From positions 1-34,792 of the forward strand of contig JAJYIA010000004.1 of assembly GCA_021796295.1 (NCBI GenBank): DNA of 34,792 bases, written 5' to 3'. The first letter of the stretch is position 1. Each line of letters opens with the position of its first letter. The position numbers and the translations under genes were made by a program. Below the pieces are notes generated by a model. It was not told the origin of the DNA. It saw only the letters and a program-made list of their open reading frames with translations, and searched no databases. Below are positions 1,900 through 34,792 of this stretch, piece by piece. This DNA is from Microcaldota archaeon. Its GTDB lineage: Archaea; Micrarchaeota; Micrarchaeia; Micrarchaeales; CABMGC01.

Positions 1900-2427
1900 T
1901 CACTGGATTTCAAAATCCCTTATCTTGTGCCATTTCTCTACGGCACCGCTTGTCGAGTATAGGAAAAGCCGATTTACAGTGAAGACTTTGCAGAAGCCGT
2001 TTCCCACTGAGCTTATTACGGCTTTTTTTTCTGCTTCAGGTATGCTCCCGTAGAGGAGGCTAAGGTGCGGCATGTAGTCACTTTTTCCAATGCCGAATAT
2101 TTTGGTTGCGGCATTGAAGGCGTGCATCACCTCTTTGCTGCGCTCTACGACTGCAAAAAGAGACCTGAAATACTCGGTAAGGTAGCCGAAGCCTGAAAAT
2201 ACTATCGGGTACGGCTCAAGCCCTTCGGCAAGCCTTTCTGTCTTCTGCAGTATGACATCTTCAGGGCCTTGCAGGTTGCCTATAAGAGTAACATGGGGTT
2301 CAAAATCTGGTGTGCCGTATTTCAAGCTTAGGCTTTTTATGGTGCGCTTTATTTCATCAGCAGAACTTTCTTCAGGCATAAGCCAGATAGAATGGCCTGT
2401 CGCCTCTACGGCTTGTTCACCGCTCAT
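1900..2427 (-). CDS. 2H phosphoesterase (2'-5' RNA ligase / cyclic phosphodiesterase-like)
   Basis: Two HxT/Sx motifs: EPHVTLIGNL and MPHLSLLYG, spaced as in the 2H superfamily. Confidence 0.8.
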   Translation of the reverse strand: MSGEQAVEATGHSIWLMPEESSADEIKRTIKSLSLKYGTPDFEPHVTLIGNLQGPEDVILQKTERLAEGLEPYPIVFSGFGYLTEYFRSLFAVVERSKEVMHAFNAATKIFGIGKSDYMPHLSLLYGSIPEAEKKAVISSVGNGFCKVFTVNRLFLYSTSGAVEKWHKIRDFEIQ

Positions 2428-2430
2428 TGA

Positions 2431-3372
2431 TTATCCCCTGAAAAGTGCAGTCAGGCTCTCCACCTCAGATGTCCCAAGAAGAACCTTCTTGTCTAATGCA
2501 ATGCCATCCCTCAGGGATGCCTTGAATACGTACGTCGGCTCTTTGCCTTCCATGAATGATATGTGAGGCACTCCCGGAGGCACTATCACAGTATCGCCTT
2601 TCTCTGCATGGACTCGTTTGAGAGAGTCGCGATCCTGATAGAACAGCCACATTCCTGAGAGCGTTACGAATATTTCATGAAGGTTGTCATGCACATGGAA
2701 ATCCTGTGGCGAAAGTGCGTTGCCTGCCGAGAAGTCGTAATCTGCAGGGCCTATTGTTATCTCTTTCCTGCCTTTTGAGTCGTTTCCCAGAGATCCCTCT
2801 TCCACCTTTATCCAGCCGTTCCAATGGTTAGGCACCATGATCTTAGCATTGCCGTATCTCCGTATGTGGTCGTGGAGGACTTCGTTTTTAAATACAACTG
2901 CGCCGCGGATGGAGCCAAGCTTGCCAGCCCTGTTTTCTTCAGGGCTATATACACCAGGATCCACAAAGGAAACGCTCTCGTTCACGCCCTTTCTTGTGCT
3001 TCCGTAGAAGACATAGAGCCCGTCGTTGGATGCTATGTCGCAGCTTGACGAAGGCGGCAGGATAACGCCGTGCACGTTTTTGAATGCAGTAAGCACCTGC
3101 CGTTTCTCTCTCTCTACATTGGTATGCACATCCATATCTGCTTGGGAGAACGCTATAAGGAAGTCATTCTCTCCGAGCGTGGCCCAAAAATGACCTGCGC
3201 CAACGCGCGTTACCATGAAAAACCTGCCGCTGCCCGCATGTGCAGAATCTGCTGGGCGATATATCTCGGGCATAGCCTTGGGCTGCGCCGAGGAATGCCT
3301 TGCCCTATCCTTCAACAGCATCCCCAATTGCGCGTACACCTCCTGATTATCGATATGTCGCATTGCGTTCAT
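2431..3372 (-). CDS. Cupin-domain protein with uncharacterised N-terminal region
   Basis: C-terminal 'FHVHDNLHEIFVTLSGMWLFYQD...EKGDTVIVPPGVPHISF' is a cupin metal-site pattern. Confidence 0.75.
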   Translation of the reverse strand: MNAMRHIDNQEVYAQLGMLLKDRARHSSAQPKAMPEIYRPADSAHAGSGRFFMVTRVGAGHFWATLGENDFLIAFSQADMDVHTNVEREKRQVLTAFKNVHGVILPPSSSCDIASNDGLYVFYGSTRKGVNESVSFVDPGVYSPEENRAGKLGSIRGAVVFKNEVLHDHIRRYGNAKIMVPNHWNGWIKVEEGSLGNDSKGRKEITIGPADYDFSAGNALSPQDFHVHDNLHEIFVTLSGMWLFYQDRDSLKRVHAEKGDTVIVPPGVPHISFMEGKEPTYVFKASLRDGIALDKKVLLGTSEVESLTALFRG

Positions 3373-3400
3373 AGATTCGCCTGCTTTCTAGACAGCCATA

Positions 3401-3460
3401 AATCATACTAAGTCATATATTATCATATAATATCATACTTTATCTTAATTTATCATAAAT
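3401..3460. promoter_or_regulatory. Six tandem 10-bp repeats (consensus tATCATAnnn), putative RHH operator/iterons
   Basis: aatcatacta|agtcatatat|tatcatataa|tatcatactt|tatcttaatt|tatcataaat; TCATA core at 3403, 3413, 3423, 3433, (3443 TCTTA), 3453. Confidence 0.75.
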
Positions 3461-3506
3461 ATATAAATTTTGCTGCTGCAATTATATACATGTGTAAAAT
3501 GATTCG

Positions 3507-4379
3507 ATGAAAAAAAGGCTTACCATAACGCTTGACGAGGATCTGCTCAAAAAAATAGATGCAAGCGTGGATGGCGTGAACATAAGGAACAGGTCGCATG
3601 CCATAGAGCATCTTCTCGACGCATCGCTTCTGCATATAGCCCCGAAGAAGGCTGTGCTCTTTGCAGGGGGCAGGAAGGTGGAGGTAGACGGCAGGCTCCT
3701 TTACTCACCGATGATACCCATAAACGGCATGCCCATAATGGCGCATGTGCTGAATGAGCTTAAGAGGAACGGCATAACCGACGTGCTTGTGACCATAGGA
3801 AAGGGCAGCGATGACATTGTAGAATATTTCGGCGATGGCTCTTCATTCGGGCTTAAAATAAATTACATAAGGGAGGATGCGCCGAGGGGCACTGAGGGCG
3901 CACTAGAGCTTGTCAACGGGCTTGTCGGAAGAGAGCCCTTCTTTGCGCTTAACAGTGACCACATATTCAGGCTTGACATGGCAGACATGTATCTGCAGCA
4001 TGCAAGCACAAAGGCCATGGCGACCATAGCTCTGACCACATCGATATCAGAATCCAGAATGGGCGTTACAAGGCTTGACGGCTTCAAGATAACAAGCTTT
4101 TCAGAGAAGCCGCAGAAGGGTGAGGCGAAGATCGTGAACGCAGGCATATACCTATTCGATCCTGCTGTGCTGGGCCTTCTTACCCCATCGGCAGAGAGGA
4201 TAATGCTTGAGCAGAGCCTCTTCCCCATGCTTGCCAATTCAGGCAGGCTTTTCGGCTATGTGTTCTCGACGCCGTGGTACTCCATAGACAATCTTGATGA
4301 CATAAAGAAAAGCAAGGCGGAGATGGAGCGCGTTGCAGCCATGATCCAGAAGGAGTCGGCGAGGCCGAGGAAGGCCTAG
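3507..4379 (+). CDS. Ribbon-helix-helix domain fused to sugar-phosphate nucleotidyltransferase
   Basis: N-term MKKRLTITLDEDLLKKIDASVDGVNIRNRSHAIEHLL is RHH/CopG-like; the rest (PMIPINGMPIMAHVLNELKRNGITDVLVTIG...DAPRGTEGALELV...FFALNSDHIF) is NTP_transferase-like. Confidence 0.85.
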   Translation: MKKRLTITLDEDLLKKIDASVDGVNIRNRSHAIEHLLDASLLHIAPKKAVLFAGGRKVEVDGRLLYSPMIPINGMPIMAHVLNELKRNGITDVLVTIGKGSDDIVEYFGDGSSFGLKINYIREDAPRGTEGALELVNGLVGREPFFALNSDHIFRLDMADMYLQHASTKAMATIALTTSISESRMGVTRLDGFKITSFSEKPQKGEAKIVNAGIYLFDPAVLGLLTPSAERIMLEQSLFPMLANSGRLFGYVFSTPWYSIDNLDDIKKSKAEMERVAAMIQKESARPRKA

Positions 4380-33936: not shown

Positions 33937-34479
33937 TCAGATCCTGCGTATGCCTGCGAACTCAGAGAGTATGTGCTCGTCAACGGGAGTGAACTCCTTG
34001 TTTCTAAGCATATTTTTCATCTGGCTTACGCTGACAAGCTTCTTGCTGCCTCTGACGGCTTCGCCGCTTTCGCGTATAAGAGAGAAGACACCTACATCCA
34101 TAACCATAACATATACGGCCCTTATATGCACGCCTAGCCCTGTCTTCTGGTCTTCGAAATAGGAAGCTCCTAGCTCGCGCAGCGTGTAATGCCTCTCGGC
34201 AAGGCCGAGCTCTTCGAGTATGCCACGCCTAGCCGCATCTATAGCATTCTCGCCCTCATTTATATGTTCAAGCACATGGTTGAACTTGCCCCTGTAGTAG
34301 TGCTCGCTGCGGTGCCTGCGCGTAACTACGTGCGCAACCGAGCCGTCTTCACGCTTGGCCTGCGGGAATATGCATACTACATTGTGCATCTCAAGTGGTG
34401 CATGCATCTCAAGTGGTGCAGCGCGGGCATTCTTCATGATAAGGTTCACGCAATCAATTATTATAGGAAAGGACATCAT
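33937..34479 (-). CDS. NUDIX hydrolase
   Basis: HINEGENAIDAARRGILEELGL resembles a Nudix box; adjacent to isopentenyl phosphate kinase. Confidence 0.75.
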   Translation of the reverse strand: MMSFPIIIDCVNLIMKNARAAPLEMHAPLEMHNVVCIFPQAKREDGSVAHVVTRRHRSEHYYRGKFNHVLEHINEGENAIDAARRGILEELGLAERHYTLRELGASYFEDQKTGLGVHIRAVYVMVMDVGVFSLIRESGEAVRGSKKLVSVSQMKNMLRNKEFTPVDEHILSEFAGIRRI

Positions 34480-34671
34480 TTAAAAGCCTGAGTTACAAGT
34501 TCGTTGCATGCCTATATTCCAAGGCAGCCATAGCCTACCGGGGCAGCATAGCAAGGGCGCAGGCAGAAGGCAGTAGAACGAAACAGCGCAGCCTGCAGGG
34601 CGGTATGAAAGAGGAAAAAAGCAAAGATGCAAAAGGCAAATAGAAAATGATAGGGAAGAAGAACGGAAAGA

Positions 34672-34792
34672 GATGAAAAGAAAGACATGAAAAAGGAAGA
34701 GAGACGAAAGTAAGGAAGAACGAAGAGAGATGAAAAGAAAGACATGAAAAAGGAAGAGAGACGAAAGTAAGGAAGAACGAAGAGAGATGAAA
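34672..34792. repeat. 57-bp tandem repeat in a polypurine tract, running off the window
   Basis: gatgaaaagaaagacatgaaaaaggaagagagacgaaagtaaggaagaacgaagaga repeats at 34672, 34729 and 34786 (period 57). Confidence 0.85.

Follow-up and report, generated by a model that had tools for sequence, protein, structure and literature searches.

A run of six decamers spaced exactly 10 bp apart precedes a gene that joins a ribbon-helix-helix (RHH) domain to a nucleotidyltransferase (NTase)-like domain, and this array is very likely the operator of the neighbouring fusion protein. Judged from sequence comparison, we are quite confident that the array would serve a regulator that controls its own gene and acts in both directions; its degenerate NTase domain would be the sensor of a sugar phosphate or a nucleotide-sugar. 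The analysed stretch of 34,792 nucleotides (34.8 kb), referred to as the window, is part of a 0.79-Mb genome that is 84% complete. The features at this locus are as follows.

1900..2427, minus strand: gene for a 2H-superfamily phosphoesterase, downstream of the cupin gene.
2431..3372, minus strand: divergent cupin-domain gene; 31 bp separate its start from the core of the first iteron.
3401..3460, plus strand: six-iteron 10-bp array, with a full unit of about TATCATACTT.
3461..3469, plus strand: A/T element ATATAAATT, read by eye, directly abutting the array.
3507..4379, plus strand: RHH-NTase fusion gene (290 aa), with an N-terminal ribbon-helix-helix at about residues 2-43 and a degenerate NTP_transferase domain at about residues 48-268.

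The array lies between the cupin start (3372) and the RHH-NTase start (3507), with the flanking genes as the original prediction described them. By eye, ATATAAATT could serve the fusion gene as a TATA box. The immediate neighbours of the fusion gene are the cupin, 2H phosphoesterase, and arginase-family genes. The cupin gene is a conserved partner of the fusion, with 11 loci in its homology cluster, and the 2H phosphoesterase gene recurs at 8 loci. Elsewhere in the window, an AbiEi-like/AbiEii toxin-antitoxin pair was located at 367-1646 on the minus strand, and a similar pair is present in the relative G091 (L077). The contig end carries an exact 18-bp tandem duplication (34385-34420) and a 57-bp tandem repeat with a 97% match (34658-34792).

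Sequence reading placed TCATA cores at 3403, 3413, 3423, 3433, and 3453 and a TCTTA core at 3443. Re-reading returned the same coordinates for the six phased decamers as originally claimed (3401-3460), and 29 of their 30 core letters match. The intergenic region (3373-3506) is 134 bp long and 75% A+T, a composition that would favour a chance periodicity in an A+T-rich promoter, such as phased TATA-like or curved DNA. We compared the array with dinucleotide-preserving shuffles of this region. None of 20,000 shuffles was as good as 29 of 30 core letters (shuffle maximum, 23), and none contained five exact cores (shuffle maximum, 3). When the core could be any 5-mer and its period anything from 7 to 12 bp, the observed five was still matched by none of 2,000 shuffles. 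Tandem Repeats Finder reported a period of 10 at 3413-3457. The pattern TCATA-N5-TCATA-N5-TCATA, with up to two mismatches, was found in the 34.8-kb window at the array only, as four overlapping matches against 0.09 expected.

Conservation was examined in a set of 45 fusion genes from 32 genera, consisting of the window gene, 26 genes from its order, and 18 from other families of the class Micrarchaeota. TCATA direct repeats on either strand were counted in the 200 bp upstream of each gene. Repeats at exactly 10 bp were present in 21 of the 45 fusion promoters and in 16 of the 32 genera, as expected from the original prediction that orthologous fusions would be preceded by periodic TCATA; the strict TCATA doublet was absent from 24 promoters. 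A spacing of 20 bp was found in 10 fusion promoters, and all remaining spacings from 6 to 24 bp occurred zero or one time each. Exact TCATAC pairs occurred 17 times at a spacing of 10 and twice at 20, with none at the other spacings tested. Shuffled fusion promoters gave a mean of 0.07 and a maximum of 1 (200 rounds), and only 1 of 361 other promoters at the same loci contained a TCATA pair at 10 bp. The pooled array units read TCATAC (T 73/73, C 68, A 65, T 68, A 72, C 56), although these letter counts are partly selected by the search itself. The C at core position 2 and the 10-bp spacing are thus kept across genera, which, together with the shuffles and the control promoters, makes the probability of a chance periodicity practically negligible.

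Within the family of the window, TCATAC reads in the same direction as the fusion gene and lies approximately 60-115 bp ahead of its start, whereas in other families GTATGA is usually co-directional. Most relatives have two units only, at promoters and in some cases over start codons. At L133, L134, and L136, the fusion gene's ATG falls inside the last GTATGA unit, indicating an overlap of operator and start. These locations ahead of or over the fusion start suit repression. Among the fusions found after the motif had been fixed, G219 carries GTATGAAAAAGTATGA, and G239 shows a TAATAC repeat with a spacing of 10 bp. A separate related-locus search of contigs yielded one truncated relative.

The distribution of the array was analyzed at the genome level. 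Because the 17-bp doublet with one mismatch was near background across genomes (39 matches against 33 for the reversed control), exact matches were counted. By hand count, exact TATCATAN3TATCATA was present in 9 of 19 fusion carriers in the window's family, compared with 1 of 60 other genomes; the lone non-carrier is a 62%-complete genome from a carrier genus. The reversed control used for GTATGA doublets is no independent one, as it coincides in part with real arrays, and most of the GTATGA doublets inspected in non-carrier genomes were inside coding sequence. The window's own genome, 84% complete, yielded no second array; there, the 17-bp doublet (with at most one mismatch) occurs at this locus only and other TCATA pairs are coding or unremarkable. 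The regulon of this genome may therefore be this locus alone.

The proposed scan for further arrays, empty elsewhere in the window's genome, was productive in carrier relatives, where doublets lie ahead of sugar and central-carbon genes. In three genomes of genus g4 (G029, G047, and G054), the fusion gene has no array and is located behind purine genes, as read by eye, and doublets precede a canonical sugar NTase gene (L068-L070); a doublet before such an NTase gene was also found at L095. A doublet is located ahead of a bifunctional phosphoglucose/phosphomannose isomerase (PGI/PMI) gene at L084, assigned above the NCBIfam cut-off, and at L085, assigned by similarity. In G061 (L096), the doublet is flanked by a cupin-like/2H pair on one side and an NTase-PGI/PMI pair on the other. 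Among distant-family carriers, doublets precede genes for GlpX FBPase (L182), type II GAPDH (L175), GAPDH-PGK (L192), and dihydrolipoyl dehydrogenase with E2 (L190), or lie between PMM/PGM and NTase genes (L184 and L216). As in the three g4 genomes, the fusion gene has no array of its own in the genomes of L084, L085, L095, L096, and L216. Some trans matches were uninformative: L178 lies within a gene, L187 lies near a transposase-like gene, and L218 and L219 have no clear target gene. Sugar-nucleotide and central-carbon genes appear to be under the control of the fusion family across the class. Two further observations concern individual loci. G207 has GTATGA/GTATTA arrays of 3-4 units at L218 and L219, and its own fusion gene has no array. 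A single frame at L138:2247-3617 matches FBPase_3 (residues 6-117) and DUF2090 (residues 150-444), and is either a fusion or an assembly artefact.

A variant group of divergent RHH-NTase paralogues, likewise found after the motif had been fixed, occurs in G198, G213, and G216 (L162, L163, and L164). These genes have the inverted site TAATAC-N4-GTATTA, which occurs exactly once in each of the three genomes, at the paralogue gene. They adjoin epimerase/dehydratase, reductase, and RmlA-like NTase genes, in what by eye are dTDP-rhamnose-type clusters. Their RHH strand reads RVS instead of RLT or RIT, a difference that fits a predicted shift in operator specificity.

The RHH_1 profile of Pfam matched the fusion protein with E=0.0029 and 18 bits, slightly under the cut-off, in the protein scan, and with 22.2 bits, above the cut-off, in the genome scan. 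The closest solved RHH domain is that of E. coli NikR (PDB 1q5v, E=0.0022), followed by CopG. The similarity to NikR is evident in the strand and following residues (RVTITLDDDLL in NikR and RLTITLDEDLL in the fusion), and the first nine residues, MKKRLTITL, are identical in CopG and the fusion. The operator of E. coli NikR is GTATGA-N16-TCATAC (PMC7055735), and the array core TCATAC/GTATGA is letter-for-letter the same as this published half-site. The recognition element is thus a NikR-type hexamer instead of the omega heptad WATCACW, with which the array had originally been compared. By sequence, the RHH_1 and NikR matches place the fusion N-terminus in the RHH (MetJ/Arc/CopG) superfamily, whose hallmark is a beta-alpha-alpha domain of approximately 45 residues with a T/R-rich N-terminal strand. 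The AlphaFold single-sequence model of the fusion was unusable (pLDDT 32). NikR and CopG contact bases through Arg and Thr of the N-terminal strand, which in NikR are R3, T5, and T7. R4, T6, and T8 of the fusion align with these residues. In some distant orders, the DNA-contacting strand is K-A-S instead of R-T-T and the site is still GTATGA; the recognition code is therefore not simply that of NikR.

The NikR half-site in the array core, along with NikR_C proteins encoded by 9 of 26 carrier genomes, would suit an operator that belongs to another regulator, either a true NikR or a different DNA-binding protein, with the fusion gene merely adjacent. However, the NikR_C search found no such protein in the window's genome or in nine relatives (G022, G011, G029, G047, G201, G183, G215, G227, and G170), all of which have arrays or doublets. 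The fusion is also the only RHH_1 protein detected in the window's genome at 84% completeness. Furthermore, the doublets track fusion carriers, and the targets are sugar genes and not nickel genes. We consider a separate regulator quite improbable and assign the array to the fusion protein.

The C-terminal part of the window's fusion protein matched NTP_transferase with E=2.5e-27. Its profile relatives are mannose-1-phosphate guanylyltransferases and UTP-glucose-1-phosphate uridylyltransferases (e.g. PDB 7x8j and 8x7s), with E values of approximately 4e-36. The fusion shares the sequence family and most sugar-binding motifs with these enzymes; it differs from them in being joined to an RHH domain and in lacking the GxGTR loop of the GxGTR...PK signature, which is missing in all aligned fusions (28 orthologues and 17 distant fusions). 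The Arg column of this loop is R in 2 of 43 fusions and in 23 of 23 canonical neighbours, a comparison that is partly circular in that the canonical set was picked by a pattern including the Arg; the Lys and Asp columns are free of this circularity. The PKP lysine is present in 27 of 43 fusions and in all 23 canonical proteins. The first metal Asp is kept in 43 of 43 fusions, the EKP lysine in 39 of 43, and D or E at the second metal position in 14 of 43. In a tree, all fusions lie to one side of a weakly supported branch (49/70), which is compatible with a single origin.

The profile match, the kept metal Asp, and the PKP lysine of many fusions could mean that the protein combines sugar nucleotidyltransferase activity with binding to its own promoter. 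PutA, in which an RHH domain is fused to an enzyme and which acts between divergent genes (PMC5879082), is a precedent. Against this stands the loss of the loop; in the window protein, neither the PKP lysine nor the second metal Asp is present (SPM, WYSIDN). Separate genes moreover encode canonical NTases. An active enzyme therefore seems unlikely, and the word "enzyme" used for the fusion in the original prediction is doubtful because none of the aligned fusions has the signature NTase loop. The domain is probably no longer catalytic and would have kept the sugar-phosphate pocket.

From the observed array, its spacing and conservation, the half-site identity with NikR, the target context, and the loop loss, we infer physical binding, cooperativity, repression, and a ligand in the following model. 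Each decamer would hold one NikR-like hexamer site (TCATAC, or GTATGA on the opposite strand) bound by one RHH dimer, and the dimers would be stacked on a single face of the DNA, one per helical turn. Six units would allow cooperative coverage of 55-60 bp, reaching both promoters. The array would thereby control the fusion gene, by autoregulation, and the divergent cupin/2H operon. Because the array touches or overlaps both promoters, the fusion protein would most likely act as a repressor. The NTase domain would be the sensor of a sugar-1-phosphate, a hexose phosphate, or an NDP-sugar, and ligand binding would alter DNA binding. The comparative data strongly support the earlier proposal that the RHH domain binds the array and controls its own and the cupin/2H genes. 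Genomic context and domain type also support the suggested coupling to sugar-nucleotide state.

The alternative suggestion of a centromere-type partition site for a ParR-like RHH protein draws on the 10-bp repeats that ParR-type RHH proteins bind (PMC5016525). No partition motor gene was found among the immediate neighbours of the fusion gene, and the setting is chromosomal. In relatives, the array has mostly two units, at promoters and even over start codons, and sites precede several different metabolic operons. The suggestion is thus unsupported and most improbable; the arrays are promoter elements, often doublets, before sugar-metabolism genes.

Compared with known systems, the fusion shares with NikR the closest RHH sequence, the GTATGA/TCATAC half-site, and the presence of a C-terminal sensor domain. 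It differs in that its C-terminus is NTP_transferase-like and not the NikR_C metal domain, its sites are 10-bp direct repeats (six here) in place of a single inverted pair with an N16 spacer, and its targets are sugar genes and not nickel uptake. Like PutA, it joins an RHH domain to an enzyme fold, has its site between divergent genes, and, in the working model, is controlled in its autorepression by a metabolite. Unlike PutA, it has no proline dehydrogenase domain; its enzyme fold is unrelated, the catalytic loop is lost, and the operator is another one. The fusion is therefore similar to NikR and PutA in its working and a member of neither. With CopG, omega, and ParR it would share RHH dimers on tandem, helically phased repeats, and with CopG also its first nine residues. 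The latter are small proteins encoded on plasmids, and they have no metabolic domain; moreover, the omega heptad is not the repeat unit here, and the partition genes of ParMRC/ParR do not adjoin the fusion gene.

A literature search, with incomplete coverage, found nothing relevant on an archaeal RHH-nucleotidyltransferase regulator. We lean towards the view that the fusions represent an undescribed, class-wide transcription-factor family of Micrarchaeota. In this family, a disabled sugar NTase joined to a NikR-like RHH domain would be the sensor in charge of sugar-nucleotide synthesis; in several families, its reach would extend to central carbon metabolism (FBPase, GAPDH, PGK, and dihydrolipoyl dehydrogenase). 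A paralogue group with the shifted operator TAATAC-N4-GTATTA would act in dTDP-rhamnose-type clusters. Control of transcription in the tiny DPANN archaea is almost unexplored, and the present analysis provides a predicted regulator with an exact predicted operator and conserved targets, and points to sugar phosphates or nucleotide-sugars as the candidate signal. The family may exemplify how gene fusion turns an enzyme fold into a sensor, and how the DNA word of NikR can be put to use with another signal and in another arrangement of sites.
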